Shown one piece after another: positions 42,143-52,730 of a stretch of 64,000 nucleotides of DNA. The stretch is taken from positions 2,356,001 through 2,420,000 of the forward strand of contig NZ_CP063849.1 in the NCBI RefSeq assembly GCF_015277775.1. The letters are read 5' to 3'. Each line of letters begins with the position of its first letter. Positions within the stretch are counted from its first letter, which is position 1. The DNA is from Paludibaculum fermentans (GTDB lineage: Bacteria; Acidobacteriota; Terriglobia; Bryobacterales; Bryobacteraceae). The position numbers and the translations under genes were made by a program. Under the pieces are notes generated by a model. The model worked only from the letters and a program-made list of their open reading frames with translations. It was not told the origin of the DNA and made no database searches.

Positions 42143-45100
42143 TCAGCACGCATCAGGCACGGGAACAAGAGGCGAAACCCGCAGCATCCGGGCGAAACCC
42201 AGATCGGCGCCCACCGGATCCGGCGCCGGATTTACGTCCTGGACCCCGCCGAAACACTCCACGGCCAGCACCGTCAAGGGCGCATCCTCGGGCAACCCGA
42301 CCCGTCGCAGCATCTGCCGGACGGTGCCGATCTCCACTTCGCCCTCGCCAAACAGCACAGCCGCATTGCCCTCCGGCCCCGCGTTAAACAGCGCGGCCGG
42401 CGGCGGCAGTGTCAGGTGCGTCAGGAGCAGATTTCGCCACGCCTTTCCATCCGTCTGCCGGACCCGCGCATAGAGCACGGCCCACAGTTGGGTCCGCGGG
42501 ACCTGTGGACGGACATTCCGCCCCTTGTACACCGGCGTCGCAAACGAAGCGCGGACTCGCACGGCCCGCTCCGTTCGCGCAGCCTGGCAGGCCAGGGGAG
42601 GCGCGGGGTGCTGAACCCCGGCCACGCGCAGTGCCGGCCCGTGGCGTCCCTGCGCGGTGCACCAGCGGGCCTCAGTATGCCCCAGGCGGATCTCATACGT
42701 GTACATGCCAAACAACTCGGGCGAGGACGAGCCGAGCCCTTCCGGCAGCGGCACAATCCAATGCCGCCCGTCGGGCGTGTTCTGGGCCAGTCCGCCCATC
42801 GCGTTCAGACCGTTGTTGTCTCGCGGCTGGCCAGGCACGATCAACCGCATCCACTCCGGATCCAGCGGCAGGGGGGTCTCGACCGTCTCCGGAAAAACCT
42901 CGAGAGTCAGCATTGGATCGGGGGCGTCGGCCAGGATTCGTACGAAGTAGGCGTCATCCGGATCGTTCGGCGCCTCCTCGAACTCGACCCATAGCGATCG
43001 GACCCGCTGGTTCGTTGAGGAGTAATCATCCGCCGGCACATACTCGGACAAGGCGATTCCGGCCGACACCAGCTTGGGAACCTGGACAGGCTGAGTTGTC
43101 ACCGGCAGCAGCAGTTCCGGCAGAATCTCGGGCGCGGGCGCGGGTGCCCCGCCCTGGAAGGCAGCCTCGATCCGGTACTCAAACCGGAGTTCGGCCGGGA
43201 ACTCGCCGGCCGCCGGCTTCGGATCGAAGGCGTCGAAGAAGAAAATGTCAGTGAACTGGCGCTGCGCGGCCCGGGGGCCCGTCGCGACCCCTGTCCTGGC
43301 CTGCTGCGCCAGCGAGCGCGGCAGCACCACCTGGCCCGCGAGCCGCTCCACGTCAGCTCGATTGGGCTGCTTGACGATCCGCCTTACCTCGAAGCGGCCG
43401 TTGGCCAGTCCATCCCACGTCCAGTCGCGGGCGACTGTGAACTTGACGGCGTTCACCCACCGGCCAACCGCGTCGGCGTTCGAAGCGAAAGTAATCGCCG
43501 AGGCCTCGGAGCCGAGGGTGTGCTGCAGTTCCGAGGACGCTGAGAAGATCGTCCGGTGGCCGGGACGCCCGGTGATCGTGACTCGCGAATGATTCAGCCC
43601 CAGCTCCTGCGCCATGCGCTCCAGGGGATTCGCCACCGTGCCGTCGGCCGGGGGCGGCTGGAAAAAGAATCCTCGCAGCGGCAGGTCGAGCGCGGAGAAG
43701 AGAGGCTGTTCAGCGACTGCCTCGGCTCGCAGTTCAATCGTGATCGGAAGGCCCACGCGGGCGGCTTCCGGTTCAAAATAGTCCGCATCGTCACGGCCGA
43801 TCGCGGTGAGTGTCAAACGAATGGCCCGGGCCGTCGGAATAGCCAGCGGGCCATTGTCCGGTTGCAGCTCAGCGAACGCAGCCAGCGTCGCGTGATCCTC
43901 TGCCTTGACTGGGATCGCGATCTCGTCGGCATCGAAGGGCCGCCGGGTGCTGTACAACGGCAGCCACTGGGCCTCGTCACCGGCCAACGCCCGGACCTCG
44001 ACAAGGATGCCTACCTGGAGTACATCCGGATCCGGCACGCCGAACTCGCGCTCCGGCGCAGTCCCGAAGTCGTTCTTGAGGTCAGCAAACGTGGCGTCGC
44101 CCGTGAAGAGCGCCTCGGGATAACCCAGCCGCGGCTTCGCAATCTGAATCGACGGAGAGTCTTTGGACGGCCTGGCCAACACGTGAATCTGGCCCGGACG
44201 GCGTCGCCGCCGAAATGCAATCGAGGTGATGGAATCCGCCGGGAGCGCCACAACATCCTCGGCCACCGGGCCACCCCGCGTCAGGTCGGCCAGCCTGACT
44301 CTGAATTCGTAGGTCGCCCCATAGCGTAGCGGCACTGCCTTGTCCGCCACCGGCACGAACACTTTGTCACGGCCCAGCTTATGCGCCTGCGCGGCCGGGT
44401 CATCGAGCAGGGGGTGCTGGTGCAGTTCGACCAGGTCCTGGTCTGTGAGTGCCAGTGAACTGCCGCGCCACGTCGCGAAGTAAGGAGGCATCCAGTACTG
44501 CCCGGCCAACGCCGGGGAGATCTGGACCGGCGCCACCTCAACCACCGCGTCTCCGGCAAACGGTCCAATCCTCTCTGCGCCCACCGTCAGGTCGCCCACG
44601 CTGGCGATCTGCTGCAGCGAGTTCCAGGCGTCGTCGCCGCGCCGCCGCACATCCACCCGGTAACCCGCTGTGCCCATCGGCGCGGTGAACGCCGGGTTCA
44701 CCTGGCGGTTCAGCCATTCGGCCACCTGCTCGTCATCCCACGCCAGCCGGATCGCATCCCCGCCGTCATCTGTCTGCGCACAGTGCACCATGCGCGAAAA
44801 GCCTGCGCTGTAGCGCTCCGCTTCGCGATAGACGTCGTCCGCCGGATCGGCGCCATCCACGGGAAAGAGCACCGCGGCATACAGTGTACGATTCTCGTTG
44901 AGGGCCGGCAGCCGCGCGGCGTAGACAGACCGGAACCCCGCGGCGGCGCCGAAGTAATCGCTGCTTGCATCCAGGTCGATGTAGAGCCACCCACCCTTGG
45001 CGAGGCGCGCCGGGTCTGGCACAGTCACCGTAGCCTGGCCAATGAAACCGCACGCCTCTGCCAGCGCCGGCTGCTTCAGGACCATGGCCACAATCCGGCC

Positions 45101-45589
45101 CCACGTCACGCTATCGTCGAGCTCGATGGGCAGCGCGGGCTGGCTTCCCTGCGCCTCGTGGAGGGCGCAATCGAAGTCATCCGCACTCGCCATGAACCGC
45201 GACATCTCCCTGTTGCCGGTGAGTGCCCGATAGCTGTCGGTGACCGGCTTTCGAAACGATGGCGCCGCTGCTCCAACGGCCACCGGACGCGGGACAATGC
45301 GGAACTCCCCTCTGAGCGCAGCCAGCAGAGCCGCCTTGTTCAGAGGCTCGGGTTCCAGCACCAGGGGACCCACCGGCTCTGCGTCGGCCGCCTGCGGCAG
45401 ACTGTCCGGATGGTCGATCAACTGCGCCGTGAAGACGAGATTGGCTGCCGCGAAAGCCGGTTGGCCGGCCGCGAGCGCTTCATTCGGATCCCCTTTCGGC
45501 AGGCACAGGAAGCGTACCCGGACGGTCCCATCGCTCCAGCGTTGCGGAAAGGTCAGCAGGCTCAGGCGGGCAGGGGTAGGTGCTGGCAT
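42143..45589 (-). CDS. very large protein of unknown function, partner of the next gene
   Basis: 1148 residues, no signal peptide or membrane helix, Ala/Pro/Asp-rich and predicted mostly beta. I do not recognise a family. Visible landmarks: ARLSLLTFPQRWSDGTVRVR at the start; a segment resembling a fibronectin-III strand (LRYGATYEFRVRLADLTRGG, about residue 430); and near the C-terminus GMYTYEIRLGHTEARWCTAQ and VLYARVRQTDGKAW. It starts 13 bp downstream of the 1478-residue gene and is clearly cotranscribed with it. Both have normal composition for this genome. The role is unknown; a cytoplasmic or non-classically exported complex is an inference. Confidence 0.6.
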   Translation of the reverse strand: MPAPTPARLSLLTFPQRWSDGTVRVRFLCLPKGDPNEALAAGQPAFAAANLVFTAQLIDHPDSLPQAADAEPVGPLVLEPEPLNKAALLAALRGEFRIVPRPVAVGAAAPSFRKPVTDSYRALTGNREMSRFMASADDFDCALHEAQGSQPALPIELDDSVTWGRIVAMVLKQPALAEACGFIGQATVTVPDPARLAKGGWLYIDLDASSDYFGAAAGFRSVYAARLPALNENRTLYAAVLFPVDGADPADDVYREAERYSAGFSRMVHCAQTDDGGDAIRLAWDDEQVAEWLNRQVNPAFTAPMGTAGYRVDVRRRGDDAWNSLQQIASVGDLTVGAERIGPFAGDAVVEVAPVQISPALAGQYWMPPYFATWRGSSLALTDQDLVELHQHPLLDDPAAQAHKLGRDKVFVPVADKAVPLRYGATYEFRVRLADLTRGGPVAEDVVALPADSITSIAFRRRRRPGQIHVLARPSKDSPSIQIAKPRLGYPEALFTGDATFADLKNDFGTAPEREFGVPDPDVLQVGILVEVRALAGDEAQWLPLYSTRRPFDADEIAIPVKAEDHATLAAFAELQPDNGPLAIPTARAIRLTLTAIGRDDADYFEPEAARVGLPITIELRAEAVAEQPLFSALDLPLRGFFFQPPPADGTVANPLERMAQELGLNHSRVTITGRPGHRTIFSASSELQHTLGSEASAITFASNADAVGRWVNAVKFTVARDWTWDGLANGRFEVRRIVKQPNRADVERLAGQVVLPRSLAQQARTGVATGPRAAQRQFTDIFFFDAFDPKPAAGEFPAELRFEYRIEAAFQGGAPAPAPEILPELLLPVTTQPVQVPKLVSAGIALSEYVPADDYSSTNQRVRSLWVEFEEAPNDPDDAYFVRILADAPDPMLTLEVFPETVETPLPLDPEWMRLIVPGQPRDNNGLNAMGGLAQNTPDGRHWIVPLPEGLGSSSPELFGMYTYEIRLGHTEARWCTAQGRHGPALRVAGVQHPAPPLACQAARTERAVRVRASFATPVYKGRNVRPQVPRTQLWAVLYARVRQTDGKAWRNLLLTHLTLPPPAALFNAGPEGNAAVLFGEGEVEIGTVRQMLRRVGLPEDAPLTVLAVECFGGVQDVNPAPDPVGADLGFARMLRVSPLVPVPDAC

Positions 45590-45602
45590 GGGGAGTGGCT
45601 CC

Positions 45603-48600
45603 TCAGATAGCGGCGGTCAACGCCAGGGCTCCACCGCCAAGCGGCAGCGCGGCGAGCCTCAGTGGAATGTTCTGCTCGAATTGCGTTCGAATGTCGACGT
45701 CTTCTTCGATCAGCCAGGCGACCTGGACTGTAGCCACCACGCGGATGTCGGCGAAGATCGTGACGTTCTCGAAATCCGCCCGCAGGATCCGGGCCATGGC
45801 CTGCACGGCGAACGAGAAGCCGATCAGTCCGCCCAACAGCTTGGCGCGAGCCTCAAGCCCCAGCAGGACGCCCGGCTGCAGCGTCTCCGGGATCAGCGTA
45901 TAGCCGTAAACGATGGTGACCTCCACCTCTAGCAAATTCTTGATGAGGTCCCCGCCCAGCGACGTGGTCATGCCCAGGCCGAGTTCAATCGTCGGGCTGC
46001 CGTCTTCCTTGATTTCCAAAGCGAAGCGGAACATGCCACCGGCATAAACCAGGGGTGGAATAACGCCTTGCTGGATGTCTCCCTGGAACTCGGCCAGCAG
46101 TCGCCCGCGGGTCGATCCGCTCAGGGCCGCCTCCAGTTGGCCAGTCACATGGAATTCGCCATAGAACTTGCCCACGCCGATGTCGATACGCTCGTTGGGC
46201 CCCTCGCCCAGCCGGAACTTCAGGCTGAGCACCACAATGAACGACGGGCTTGGCCCTGAACCTGCCGTGACGTCCACATCGAAATCCAGTCCGAGGTTCA
46301 CAAACTGCTTCAGCGCGTTGACGATCTCCCGCAGCGCATCCAGTGCCGGGCCGAAGTCGAGCGACGGCTTCTGCAGCTTGCCCAGTTCTCCGCTGATGGC
46401 GCTGTAGTTCGTCTTGATGACGAAGATCTTGCCGAAAGGATCGATCTCAATATTGATGTCGTTGGGCGTGACGCCGATCTCCCAGGGCTTTCCCTCCAGC
46501 GCGGAATCGATGATGCCGCTGAGTTTCGGGGCATCCGGAAACAGCCGCTGGATCGCCCACTCTCCGCCCTTGGCCAGGTCCGGCAGCGGAGCCGTCAGGT
46601 CAAAGCCGGCGTTGGACATCCGCCAGTCGTTCACGCCGGAAATGTCGAAAGCGGCGGCCTGCGCCGCACGCAGGGAGTAGACACTGCGCGGGAAGACGCC
46701 CGTCGCCTGCGCCAAAGACATCGGGTCCGCGACGGCCGGCGCCGCGGTCCGCAGAACGCCAGGCTCCAGCGGATTCACTGAGGGCACCGGGAACAACACA
46801 CGGCTGGTGGGCGTCGTCATCAACAGGCCATACTCAGTCGCCGGACGGCTTCGATTCGCATCCGCCGGATCACGGAAAGTGTACGGCTGGCCGGTCAGCC
46901 GGATCACGGGAATGCCGCGCCTCGGATCAACGGCCGATGCTTCCCCCGCACTGCTCACGCCCACCGCGCTCCACTGGCCCGCCCTTGGCAGTTTCGGCGA
47001 GCCGTAGGCAGCCACCACGAATCCGGGCGCCGCTCCGTTGTCTTTCGGTGCCACTCCGGCGAAGAGCCCGGAGACCTGCATGTCGAGAGTCCCACCCACC
47101 CGGATTCCGATATCCGCCGGGCCGCCGAGGACACCCTTCACTGCGGCAAACAGCAAAGCCATCCGATTGGCCGTCGGAGCGGCCAGCGGCCCCGTCGGCA
47201 GCACTTGGATGTAGCCGGCCTGGTTGTAAACCGGCACACGGCCGGCCTGCCCGCCCGCCGTCACGTTCTCCAGTTCGGCATCGCAATCGTAAAGCACTTC
47301 CTGCCAGACGGAGCCATCCGGAAGCGTCAGCAGCGGCGTGCCGGGAAGGCGGATCCGCCGGATCTTCCGGTACGCAATCACCACGCCCTTCTCGAACTTG
47401 GCCGGGCTCTCGAACAGTCCGTCGTCAACGGCCACCCAGCCGCTGTCGAAACGCAAAACGCGCCCCGAGTTGCGCCGCTCCATCACAATGCTGCGCACCA
47501 GGTGCGCCTCGCAGGGCGCCAGGATGGTTCTGGCCTGGATCACCTCCAGTGAGGTCCGGCCGATCATCACATCAAAGCGCGCTTGCGTAATCCCGACAGG
47601 CGCGTCCCTGCGCCAGTCGCTGAACGTGCTCAGCCCATAGCCCGAGAGATCCGCCTGGTGCAGCGGAAGGAAATCATGGAGCTCGTCCATCTGCAGGTTG
47701 ATGCCCGGATCGTCCACGACACTGGCCAGGCCGGCCGCGTTGGGACGCAGGTTCTGCATCTGGCGCAGCGACCCCGCCATCGTCCGGGCCGGATCCGGCG
47801 GCACCGGCGGATCAGCCGGCCTGAGCCTGCTGGACTTCAGCCGCAACTGGCGCGCCGAAGCCATCTCCGGTCCGAACTCCACCGCGTGCAGCGAGGCCTC
47901 CGTCGCAGTGCTCAGGAACTGCAGCACCTCCAGCGAATCGAATCGCGCGAACGCGCGCAGCCCAAACGGCAGCGAGAACATCACTCCACAGCGTTCACGG
48001 TCCCGCGCCGACTGCACCCACTCCCGGGCGACGACACCCGGCAGCACGGGAACCAGCTTGACGCTCTTCGATCCAGCCAGTGTTCGTGCCCCGTTCGTCT
48101 TCGACGCCAGTTCCACGGGCCCGGCTTGCACCGGCTCCCATAGCACCTGTGGCTGCATCAGCAATCGCATCCCGCTCAGTTGCAGGTTCAGTTGATTGCC
48201 GCGAATCGTAGGCTCAAGACGCCCCAGCGATTCCATCGCCACACCGAGATGATCTTCGTTGCTCGATAGATCCAGCAGGCTCAGCGACTCTCGATGGGTC
48301 CCCAAATGCCCGTCGAAGAGCTCCCGCAGAGTGGCGTCTTCATCCGCCGGAACCACCCCGGGCTCGGGAAAGAGGACTCGGCGCTCCAACCGGCTCTCGA
48401 TGCTAGGCGTGGCCGCGGCCTGCCAGGTGAGCGTGGTGGAAAGCGCCGCCTGCTGGGCCTGCCCGGCATCCGGCGGGTTCCAGTTCGTAGCGTATGGATC
48501 CGGCAGGCTGGGCTGGGCCAGCACCACATCGAACGAATAGATAGCCGTGCCGTCGGGCACTTTGGCGGCCCCGTCGTAGGCGCCCAGCAGCACCAGCCGG

Positions 48601-50039
48601 GAGGGCTGCCTGACCGTCAGATATAGGTTTTCCAGCGCCAACCCCTCGGCCGTGGTTCCAGGATCCCGGTTGGCCACGGCAGCGAGGAACAATCCGTTTG
48701 CCCGCGCCAGAATTGCGAAATTCTCCAGCCGGCTCTCCAAACTGAACGGACTGCCTGTTGCCCGCAGCGGCAGGTCCCAGCGGTTCGTGATCGTGCCGCC
48801 TTCGTGAACCACAACCATGTCTCCACGCTCGCGTTCGCTCTGATACAGGACCCGGGTGATCGGCTCCGGCCCGAACACCACCCGGCTGAGCGCCGGGTTC
48901 CAGAGCTCCAACTCCATCCGGCCCGTCCCTTCAGCCCGTCGTCCCTCCATCAGGATGCAATCGGCGCAGGCCGTCATCACGGCGTCCTGCGAACGCAGCG
49001 ATCCGCCCGTTAGCCCCGCGGGGTGAAAGGCGAGTCGTCCGGCCAGCACAATCTGGACAGCTCCGCCATCAGCCGCTTCACCCAGGTTGGCCGGTGCGCC
49101 CGCATCCAGGGGCAGCGACCACACAGCCAACGTCGCATCGCAGCTGCCCGCAAGCTGCACGGCCGTCGACAGGTTGCCTTCGATCGTCCACGGCAGGCTC
49201 GCGGGGCCGAATGGAAATCGGACAGAAACACCATCGCTGGTGGGTGCGCCTCCCCCTTCGTTGAACACGAGCGCTGATCCGAAACCCTCTACCCCAATCG
49301 CGCCGGAAGCCGTTGGCCGGCCGTCCGAACGGACCTCCAGTGTCTGTGGCAGCGTGATCGAAGCCCCGCTTACATCGGACCCGCCGGCCTCGCCGGCTGG
49401 TGGCGGCTCGGGCTCAACGCTCAGCACCCACTGCGCGTTCGGGTTGACCAGGATCCTGCCGGCAATGGACGCCGCCGCGGCGGTAGTGGTGAAGGTGCCG
49501 CCGGCAATGCGCAGGCCGGCCATGCCCGCCGCGCCGGCGACCAGGAACCGGGCCCGAATCCAAACCGTTCCAGCCGGGATGGCAAATGCCTCGCCCCCGG
49601 GCTGCGGCGCCGTCGCAGAGGGCAGCAGCAGCAGGACCTCAGGCGTGGGATTGCCGTTGGGCTGCCGGACATGTACCGCCTGGAAGGCGGCGCTTTGAAA
49701 GATGAGGAATCGCGACAGATGCCCTGCCCTGTCAGCGAATGGCCCGAAGACGCGCGACGGGCGCATCGCATCGGACGAAGGCGTCAGCTCATTGTTCTGC
49801 AGGAAACGGGCGCGCACTCCGTCCGCCACAAACTGCGCGGCAAGCGCGGCACCTGCCGTAAGCGCAGCCGCAATCGCGGGATCCATCGACGAATCCACAG
49901 GCACCGGAATCCCGGGATTCTGCTGGATCAGGACCGCCGCCAGGAATCGGCGCAGCTCAGCCAGGTCCGCTGGCTCGGTGCCGGCAACCGGCTGCAGGGC
50001 AGCGGTGAGAGCGATCAATTGGTCCGTAACCGGGTTCAT
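45603..50039 (-). CDS. giant protein of unknown function (1478 residues)
   Basis: Start ATG at 50039 is supported by AAGGAG seven bases upstream (spacer TTCGCC) and by the clean N-terminus MNPVTDQLIALTAALQPVAG; the frame stays open upstream without a ribosome site. There is no signal peptide. Residues about 1-110 are helical. The long middle is Gly/Ala/Pro-rich beta. The last 250 residues alternate polar and hydrophobic residues (RIDIGVGKFYGEFHVTGQLE, IELGLGMTTSLGGDL, VTIVYGYTLIPETL), as in beta-barrels or beta-helices. I recognise no domain. It forms a two-gene unit with the 1148-residue gene downstream, and nothing else nearby suggests its job. Confidence 0.6.
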   Translation of the reverse strand: MNPVTDQLIALTAALQPVAGTEPADLAELRRFLAAVLIQQNPGIPVPVDSSMDPAIAAALTAGAALAAQFVADGVRARFLQNNELTPSSDAMRPSRVFGPFADRAGHLSRFLIFQSAAFQAVHVRQPNGNPTPEVLLLLPSATAPQPGGEAFAIPAGTVWIRARFLVAGAAGMAGLRIAGGTFTTTAAAASIAGRILVNPNAQWVLSVEPEPPPAGEAGGSDVSGASITLPQTLEVRSDGRPTASGAIGVEGFGSALVFNEGGGAPTSDGVSVRFPFGPASLPWTIEGNLSTAVQLAGSCDATLAVWSLPLDAGAPANLGEAADGGAVQIVLAGRLAFHPAGLTGGSLRSQDAVMTACADCILMEGRRAEGTGRMELELWNPALSRVVFGPEPITRVLYQSERERGDMVVVHEGGTITNRWDLPLRATGSPFSLESRLENFAILARANGLFLAAVANRDPGTTAEGLALENLYLTVRQPSRLVLLGAYDGAAKVPDGTAIYSFDVVLAQPSLPDPYATNWNPPDAGQAQQAALSTTLTWQAAATPSIESRLERRVLFPEPGVVPADEDATLRELFDGHLGTHRESLSLLDLSSNEDHLGVAMESLGRLEPTIRGNQLNLQLSGMRLLMQPQVLWEPVQAGPVELASKTNGARTLAGSKSVKLVPVLPGVVAREWVQSARDRERCGVMFSLPFGLRAFARFDSLEVLQFLSTATEASLHAVEFGPEMASARQLRLKSSRLRPADPPVPPDPARTMAGSLRQMQNLRPNAAGLASVVDDPGINLQMDELHDFLPLHQADLSGYGLSTFSDWRRDAPVGITQARFDVMIGRTSLEVIQARTILAPCEAHLVRSIVMERRNSGRVLRFDSGWVAVDDGLFESPAKFEKGVVIAYRKIRRIRLPGTPLLTLPDGSVWQEVLYDCDAELENVTAGGQAGRVPVYNQAGYIQVLPTGPLAAPTANRMALLFAAVKGVLGGPADIGIRVGGTLDMQVSGLFAGVAPKDNGAAPGFVVAAYGSPKLPRAGQWSAVGVSSAGEASAVDPRRGIPVIRLTGQPYTFRDPADANRSRPATEYGLLMTTPTSRVLFPVPSVNPLEPGVLRTAAPAVADPMSLAQATGVFPRSVYSLRAAQAAAFDISGVNDWRMSNAGFDLTAPLPDLAKGGEWAIQRLFPDAPKLSGIIDSALEGKPWEIGVTPNDINIEIDPFGKIFVIKTNYSAISGELGKLQKPSLDFGPALDALREIVNALKQFVNLGLDFDVDVTAGSGPSPSFIVVLSLKFRLGEGPNERIDIGVGKFYGEFHVTGQLEAALSGSTRGRLLAEFQGDIQQGVIPPLVYAGGMFRFALEIKEDGSPTIELGLGMTTSLGGDLIKNLLEVEVTIVYGYTLIPETLQPGVLLGLEARAKLLGGLIGFSFAVQAMARILRADFENVTIFADIRVVATVQVAWLIEEDVDIRTQFEQNIPLRLAALPLGGGALALTAAI

Positions 50040-50762
50040 GGCGAACTCCTTGTTTGAAGCGCAGACCAGTTGTGCAAGAACGGTTGGTTGACTGATTCGG
50101 CGACTGGACGATACGACGGCGGTCCCAGGGCTCCAACTGTAACAGCATCCGGCCGGACTTTCGCAAGGAATTCCAGTAAACTCGCGGCAATTTATGCCAA
50201 CCGGCCGCTCATCGCAAAGCCAGTTCAGGCAGGCTGAATCCAAGCGCGCAGGCGAATACCCGGAGAATCATGGGCCGAAATCGCCCAACCTCGGCCGCCT
50301 CCGGCTGGCCGCCAAGGCAAACCAAACCGCAACGAACCCCGACCGCAAGGGAGTGGTCCCCGCCGCGTTGCGAACCGCGACTGAATTGAGCCGCGACCGT
50401 CAGGGTTTGTGAAATAATCCCTCTTCGCGAAAACGGGCAAAAATGCAAGCGAGAATGGCATCGCCAGAGGCCCTGGGAGCGATCGCAGCGGGTCGCCTAA
50501 TGGTTTGAGTACCCCCCTGCGGGGGCTCTGGTTGCGCGTATTCGATTTTTTCACAGTCCCGTCAGGGAGCGGAGGAGCCACCGAAAGACCCCACCCAGTG
50601 CAGCAACGCCACCCTCTGCCCGCGAGTCCTCAGCCGGCACATGCCGCGCCCGTCCGCTCAATCCGGAATCGGCCTTGGCCAAATCATGAACCCCATGCTC
50701 AACCAGGCTTGAGCTGGGCCTCGCGTCCGTCTGCGCAGCCGCGAGGCCTCCAATCACCCAAC
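50040..50762. other. 723-bp intergenic region with short repeats
   Basis: No supported gene. It holds the promoter of the giant gene (reading left) and three variants of a motif built around CGACCG(C/T)(A/C)AGGG(AGTGG), at 50337-50356, 50388-50411 and 50557-50572. A GC hairpin CCCCC-CTGC-GGGGG sits near 50513-50526. Similar motif content at 40184-40203 suggests a dispersed genomic repeat family. Confidence 0.5.
50337..50572. repeat. cluster of CGACCG-CAAGGGAG-type motifs
   Basis: CCCCGACCGCAAGGGAGTGG (50337-50356), GCCGCGACCGTCAGGG (50390-50405) and TCCCGTCAGGGAGCGG (50557-50572) share a common core with variations. They lie in noncoding sequence only. Confidence 0.45.
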
Positions 50763-52216: not shown

Positions 52217-52730
52217 CGCTTATCCTTCTTCGAATTCGCACTGGAATTGGAAACCCGCAGGCTGCGGAGCCCGAGGTCTTGCGCCGGTCCGGATTGGACT
52301 GTCGGGGGTCGCTGTCTTCCGACTCGGCACAGGATAAGGTGTCGGTCGATACTGGGAACCTGGCAGGTTTAGCTCCCCTCGCGGGGCCGCGACGCCTTGG
52401 TGAACTGCCGACCGTTTTTCATTCTAATAGAAGCTCTCTTTATCTGCAATAGGCGGCGCTAGTTTGTCAGCAGCCCTCGGCAGCCTGTCTCCTGTTTCCC
52501 GGGCGCCATCCCCGCAACAGCCTGATCCGGGCAGCGTCAGCCGTAGGTCCGGGCAGCGTCAGCCGTAGGTCCGGGCAGCGTCAGCCGTAGGTCCGGGCAG
52601 CGTCAGCCGTATCCCTGGAGCAGCAACCGCACAATTCGGCTCCGGCGCCTCGCCTTCAAACACAGGCCAAGGAATGCGCTACACTGCCTGACACGTCGGC
52701 TGGGCAGCTGTTCAACCGTCAGAGGAGCCC
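52217..52730. other. 514-bp intergenic region with a tandem repeat
   Basis: No supported gene. The left part is the promoter region of the DUF2087 operon, including an AT-rich stretch near 52420-52445. The right part holds four 22-bp repeats (separate entry) and then the leader of the plus-strand gene, with AGAGGAG just before the ATG at 52731. Confidence 0.5.
52526..52611. repeat. 22-bp tandem repeat, 3.9 copies
   Basis: The unit TCCGGGCAGCGTCAGCCGTA plus GG occurs at 52526-52547, 52548-52569, 52570-52591 and, without the last GG, at 52592-52611. The copies are identical. There are no spacers, so this is not a CRISPR. Confidence 0.9.

Follow-up and report, generated by a model that had tools for sequence, protein, structure and literature searches.

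Two adjacent minus-strand genes, here called A and B, occupy positions 42143-50039 of a 64,000-nucleotide stretch of the Paludibaculum fermentans genome (contig NZ_CP063849.1, positions 2,356,001 to 2,420,000; hereafter the window, to which coordinates refer unless another locus is named). Together they make up a genuine protein pair, conserved and mobile, and we found no description of it. The novelty lies in the pair of protein families, and not in a proven mechanism. Conserved coding sequence of nearly 8 kb, passed between phyla as a two-gene unit and with no convincing match in any of the libraries searched (protein, phage, defence and structure), would mark a protein machine invisible to current annotation. 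As to its function, we tentatively favour an obligate complex of A and B in which the C-terminal tail of A would bind lipid, membrane or another hydrophobic cargo, a reading to which we give somewhat less than even odds. The features of the pair were as follows.

50046-50051, minus strand: AAGGAG, Shine-Dalgarno-like motif upstream of A, read from the sequence
45603-50039, minus strand: gene A, 1478 residues, ATG start, with a conserved core (about residues 560-1120) and an amphipathic beta C-terminus
47325-47702, minus strand: residues 780-905 of A, containing its best conserved block (801-900), from the conservation profile
45606-46592, minus strand: C-terminal part of A (about 330 residues), amphipathic beta pattern, z = 5.5 relative to shuffled sequence for the window's own protein
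45599-45604, minus strand: GAGGAG, Shine-Dalgarno-like motif upstream of B, overlapping the A stop codon, read from the sequence
45590-45602, minus strand: gap of 13 bp between the A stop and the B start
42143-45589, minus strand: gene B, 1148 residues, ATG start, conserved over its whole length, with an FN3-like region inside
44186-44758, minus strand: residues 278-468 of B, FN3-like, with strand C and strands F/G recognisable on either side of a long insert

The open frames, ATG starts and Shine-Dalgarno-like motifs bore out the first-pass annotation of the window, which had called two neighbouring genes of these lengths, 13 bp apart, with good starts. Its description of the codon composition as normal also held, with a GC content at third codon positions of 0.784 and 0.785 for the two genes, within the 0.77-0.88 found in five other window genes.

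Conservation, co-occurrence and movement of the pair

Fifteen loci were found in total, comprising nine intact pairs (the window, L014, L015, L017, L019, L020, L039, L040 and L041), three pairs that were cut or broken and three remnants (L022, L043 and L044, the last in genome G584). L015 lies on the Chlorohelix plasmid, L017 in genome G135 and L041 in genome G528. All nine intact pairs have A ahead of B, both on one strand, and the spacing between the two genes ranged from -28 to +36 bp when starts were called mechanically; because this gap was small in every intact pair, A and B probably share one transcript. In the broken pair of Tistrella (L016), A went out of frame before its end, and at L018 and L042 A ran into the contig end and B was split in two open reading frames (ORFs).

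When 72,556 plasmid records were searched by tblastn, A was found in three and B in four. Both genes were present on Microvirga terrae pR24_1, Candidatus Chlorohelix allophototropha plasmid unnamed2 and Tistrella mobilis pTM1, and Microvirga sp. VF16 pMVF16-3 carried only the last third of B. The pair is rare in Acidobacteriota, where B occurred in 5 of 396 genomes (counting that of the window) and A in six by search. The sixth A match, in G116 (E = 1.1e-4), was dropped as chance, since no profile candidate was present in that genome; with it removed, the same five genomes carried A and B. The earlier expectation that an undescribed pair would prove conserved in its adjacency was therefore confirmed, both by this exact co-occurrence in the Acidobacteriota sample and by the A-B order of the nine intact loci. 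B was absent from all 60 relatives of the window genome (61 genomes with the window's own). It was found in 6 of 119 genomes in the order of G135, 1 of 11 in the order of G350, 2 of 162 in the order of G407 (2 of 193, the same two genomes, in its class) and 1 of 38 in the class of G389, that one being G389 itself.

The first-pass annotation had proposed a survey across Acidobacteriota, Myxococcota and Actinomycetota. Intact pairs were found in the first of these and, carried by plasmids, in Chloroflexota and Alphaproteobacteria; none emerged from Myxococcota or Actinomycetota in a single scan of general genome contigs with A alone, in which only close relatives were detectable and which yielded no true relative and one chance match. 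With no true relative from that scan, phyla beyond Acidobacteriota are known here from plasmids alone. Its chance match covered about 40 residues in a protein of a Paenibacillaceae metagenome-assembled genome (L003, E = 0.006 in a separate search) and was set aside, as was an ORF at L019 741-1850 (E = 9e-4), likewise taken as chance.

The A tree (9 rows) and the B tree (10 rows) contained the same four sister pairs with support of 100/100: the window with G528, G407 with G531, G350 with G527, and the Chlorohelix plasmid with G135. Genomes G135, G527, G528 and G531 belong to one family (f27), yet they fell into four clades, each next to another family or phylum. Since these sister pairs cross families and phyla in both trees, the pair evidently moves horizontally as a unit. 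Mis-binning could account for some cross-family placements: the assemblies of G527, G528 and G531 are in many pieces, show 4-7% contamination and hold the pair on contigs of 9.5-28 kb. More trust can be put in the placements of G135 (1% contamination), of the window genome (2 contigs) and of the complete plasmids. Flanking repeats that would mark an insertion were sought, and only short, chance-like matches were seen. The existence of remnants indicates that the pair is also lost. The distance matrices of A and B were correlated at r = 0.978, a value reached in none of 20000 permutations.

Within the four sister pairs, eight pairwise comparisons gave proportions of nonsynonymous differences (pN) of 0.13-0.33 and of synonymous differences (pS) of 0.66-0.86, showing by sequence comparison that A and B are under purifying selection. 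Because diverged relatives are constrained in this way, the two frames are more than chance.

Sequence character of A and B

No family was recognised in either protein, as the first-pass annotation had stated; neither Pfam, NCBIfam, PHROGs, PADLOC nor the PDB gave a convincing match. The single window proteins matched zero Pfam or NCBIfam families and no PDB chain at E ≤ 1, and a Pfam scan of seven members each of A and B gave no domain (for A, none at E ≤ 0.1). The only PHROGs match was to A, at E = 0.21, in a family of unknown function. Nothing was found with PADLOC at E ≤ 0.1 for four proteins (two A, two B). Whole-length A profiles found no PDB match, and whole-length B profiles found a single one, an FN3 design (E = 0.83 and 2.1). 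The tail of A had no PDB match as a profile, and the tails of nine members gave one weak, unrelated Pfam match in one member (E = 0.035). Residues 836-1060 of B, which contain its best conserved block, had no match in a profile search. Comparison by hhalign found no kinship between A and B, and self-comparison of each gave only the trivial self-match among the matches listed. Phage sources were also negative: a tblastn search of 50,697 phage records gave no match to A or B, viral contigs scanned four times (with alignments of B (A1) and of A (A2), a Chlorohelix B and P0002, the window's B protein) returned no relative, and phage tail or contractile injection structures were matched in neither the PHROGs nor the Pfam tail families. 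DUF6603 (PF20248), a candidate considered for its large size and hydrophobic beta-rich sequence, had 0 matches in the window's genome at E ≤ 1. The open-licence papers searched included none that names the six plasmid-pair accessions, and a description elsewhere is possible.

Conservation of A peaked at residues 801-900, within the core. Its C-terminal part was only 12-20% identical to seven distant members and 65% to the nearest, and it was the most hydrophobic part of the protein. The first-pass annotation had described this end as amphipathic and beta-rich, and a home-made statistic supplied quantitative support. For the last 330 residues, the beta-type hydrophobic moment was averaged and expressed as a z score against shuffles; all nine A homologues scored 4.7-6.5, and the alpha-type moment of the same tails gave -3.4 to 1.3. 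The highest beta-type z among 76 other long ORFs from the same loci and the window was 2.5 (controls picked mechanically at ≥400 residues, plus 15 listed window ORFs, one of 378 residues, so that some are perhaps not genes). A second comparison used the best 330-residue stretch, with Escherichia coli K-12 proteins as yardsticks. A homologues then scored 5.0-6.2, groove proteins 8.8 (TamB), 6.7 (YhdP), 5.0 (AsmA) and 4.3 (YdbH), and barrels 3.2 (BamA), 3.0 (LptD), 2.7 (FhuA), 2.0 (TamA) and -0.2 (OmpF). Seven other E. coli proteins stayed at or below 1.3 (a part of TynA, read in a wrong frame, is excluded from this count), and two more controls, scored on the last 330 residues, gave -1.2 and -2.1. 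The amphipathic pattern was thus maintained despite the drift in sequence, as expected for a hydrophobic face.

B was conserved over its whole length, with a mean column identity of 47% across 10 rows. The fibronectin-like strands claimed for it in the first pass gained weak support at one place. A sub-profile of residues 278-468 against the PDB matched FN3con (E = 0.009), titin (0.28), myomesin-1 (0.54) and FNDC3A (2.4); six of the nine chains listed were FN3 or FN3-containing by name and the other three were not. The FN3con and titin alignments each had two collinear stretches, strand C (weak) followed by F/G. In Pfam, FN3 stayed below the reporting level in the window protein and seven members. 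All ten B proteins also had an invariant cysteine at or near the extreme C-terminus, after an SPL..V motif (residue 1148 in the window protein, P0002).

No signal-peptide-like start was seen in either family by hydropathy alone, in agreement with the first pass: the first 40 windows reached at most 1.48 in nine A homologues and 1.32 in the B homologues, whose N-termini, like those of A, were mechanically called starts. The highest 19-residue mean hydropathy was 1.65-2.30 in the A homologues, near the C-terminus in eight of nine, and 1.19-1.53 in the B homologues.

Neighbouring genes

Near the window pair lie an alpha-L-fucosidase gene and genes for an alpha/beta hydrolase, a DUF2087 protein, a PRC-barrel protein and, by our own reading, an RND-type pump. 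The absence of helper genes noted earlier was upheld. In an all-against-all comparison the window neighbours (30-62 kb) had no relative at other loci, and no other gene was common to more than two loci. Those shared by two were sortilin/BNR genes (L014, L042), parts of nonribosomal peptide synthetase (NRPS)-type genes (L016, L017), an aminotransferase (L045, L046) and a further gene (L016, L045).

At 3 of the 12 loci with readable flanks, a catalase-type gene lay no more than 2 kb from the pair or a remnant; this count leaves out L018 and L039 (next to no flank) and L040 (1.3 kb, one side only). Two unrelated enzyme families were involved:

L015:11970-14144: KatG on the Chlorohelix plasmid, 0.5 kb upstream of A and in divergent orientation
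L016:23137-25257: long catalase, 1.8 kb after B, Tistrella
L044:12518-14941: long catalase, 0.3 kb from the remnant, G584

The remaining nine readable loci, the window included, held no relative of these enzymes in the all-against-all comparison. The association is a lead only, because it was noticed post hoc.

Several further observations concern the surroundings. A tandem repeat with a 22-base unit lies at window positions 52526-52611, roughly 2.5 kb past the 5' end of A, and consists of three overlapping exact 42-base copies spaced by 22. Upstream of the pair in G135 are an NRPS part (L017:1-1590) and a thioesterase (L017:6026-6808), and on Tistrella pTM1 an NRPS gene follows B at a distance of 5.7 kb. 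HigBA-like toxin-antitoxin genes (Gp49 and HTH_37) occur near the pair in G528 (L041:2480-3276), and RelBE and HipA flank the Tistrella pair. On the Chlorohelix plasmid, two large proteins of 824 and 1063 residues, without a Pfam match at E ≤ 0.001, are encoded about 7 kb upstream of the pair (L015:1844-7457). The sortilin/BNR-repeat proteins at L014:23169-26297 and L042:1-2910 are related to each other; such proteins (two loci) and metallopeptidases (three loci) were considered as partners and judged common neighbours.

Candidate functions and known systems

Because A and B travel together and evolve in lockstep, they are probably parts of one joint machine. In the reading that we favour, they would be the subunits of a single obligate complex, and the two genes would spread horizontally as one accessory unit. 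Both would have a cytosolic, non-exported start. B would serve as a long, presumably beta-rich scaffold that includes one or more FN3-type domains, its beta nature outside the FN3-like region being conjectural. The C-terminal part of A would form an amphipathic beta sheet whose hydrophobic face may bind lipid, a membrane surface or a hydrophobic ligand. Several points weigh against this. Linked inheritance alone, with no contact between the proteins, would also be expected to give the mirror correlation of r = 0.978, and the physical interaction of A with B is something we infer from sequence. Means of about 1.6 over 19 residues are the usual hydropathy cut for a membrane helix; the 1.65-2.30 of A exceeds this, so that the tail may contain one. 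The moment statistic was calibrated on a small set of proteins, high scores may also come from other amphipathic beta folds, and the B homologues that were scored, five out of ten, gave z = 2.8-3.6, overlapping the barrels. The A tail profile was compared with TamB and YhdP by hhalign and nothing was found. AlphaFold, run on single sequences without an alignment, reached a mean predicted local distance difference test score of 31 for B and 33 for A 1100-1478, and the models were not used. A fuller version, in which the pair is a mobile carrier of lipid or hydrophobic cargo with a groove like that of AsmA/VPS13-type bridge proteins without common ancestry, an FN3-type scaffold subunit and sometimes catalases as an oxidative-stress package, is quite improbable in that combination.

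Among the alternatives, A and B might together build a large particle or layer, inside the cell or on its surface, in line with the first-pass suggestion; the A tail would then act as an oligomerisation interface and not in lipid binding. The large size, the FN3-like domain, the whole-length conservation of B and the strict pairing of intact loci agree with such a scaffold; however, it is unlikely given that hydropathy revealed no signal-like start, that no export or surface gene family was common to more than two loci and that no capsid, sheath or tail family was matched in Pfam, NCBIfam or PHROGs. This assembly or surface role found no direct support from a signal-like start, recurring export genes or a structural match. 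A two-part effector or pore-forming unit acting against other cells, with the amphipathic part of A inserted in a membrane, would fit the sporadic horizontal spread with decayed remnants, the hydrophobic, fast-drifting tail and the toxin-antitoxin genes at two loci (RelBE and HipA at one, HigBA-like genes at another). It is rather improbable, since toxin families were not matched in Pfam, NCBIfam or PHROGs, no immunity-like third gene was common to the loci and no secretion genes were seen beside annotated pairs.

The catalase-type genes of two unrelated families raise the idea of a stress module against hydrogen peroxide, for instance one that protects or repairs oxidised lipid. We regard it as very unlikely, because nine other loci, among them the window, lack relatives of these enzymes, and the association was seen post hoc. 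Least credible is an anti-phage or anti-plasmid defence unit, which the patchy horizontal distribution, the plasmid carriage and the transposases and toxin-antitoxin genes close to some loci would suit; no PADLOC model was matched by the four proteins scanned, and no Pfam domain was present in seven members of each family.

Stretches of B 278-468 could be aligned in the expected order with strand C and strands F/G of FN3 proteins (FN3con, titin, myomesin and FNDC3A were matched, and the order was read from two alignments), but B differs by the long insert within the domain, by the weak E-value (0.009 at best) and by the unmatched remainder of the protein. From outer-membrane beta barrels A is set apart by the lack of a signal-like start by hydropathy and by z scores of 5.0-6.2, compared with -0.2 to 3.2 in five barrels. 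By the home-made moment statistic, the A tail is more like the AsmA-type proteins of the E. coli K-12 envelope (AsmA, TamB, YhdP and YdbH), whose amphipathic beta signature is strong, extends across hundreds of residues and scores in a range like that of the tail. One publication (PMC11226057) presents YhdP, TamB and YdbH as suggested hydrophobic channels for phospholipid. A differs from this type in having no sequence kinship to it (hhalign with TamB and YhdP; Pfam), in that the N-terminal membrane anchor was not found by hydropathy (≤1.48 over 19 residues, nine homologues), in that the signature is confined to its C-terminal part and in its partner B, which has no counterpart there. By analogy, the tail of A may work like a groove without A being a member of the AsmA type; if it does bind lipid, the pair would represent an independent bacterial solution for hydrophobic cargo.

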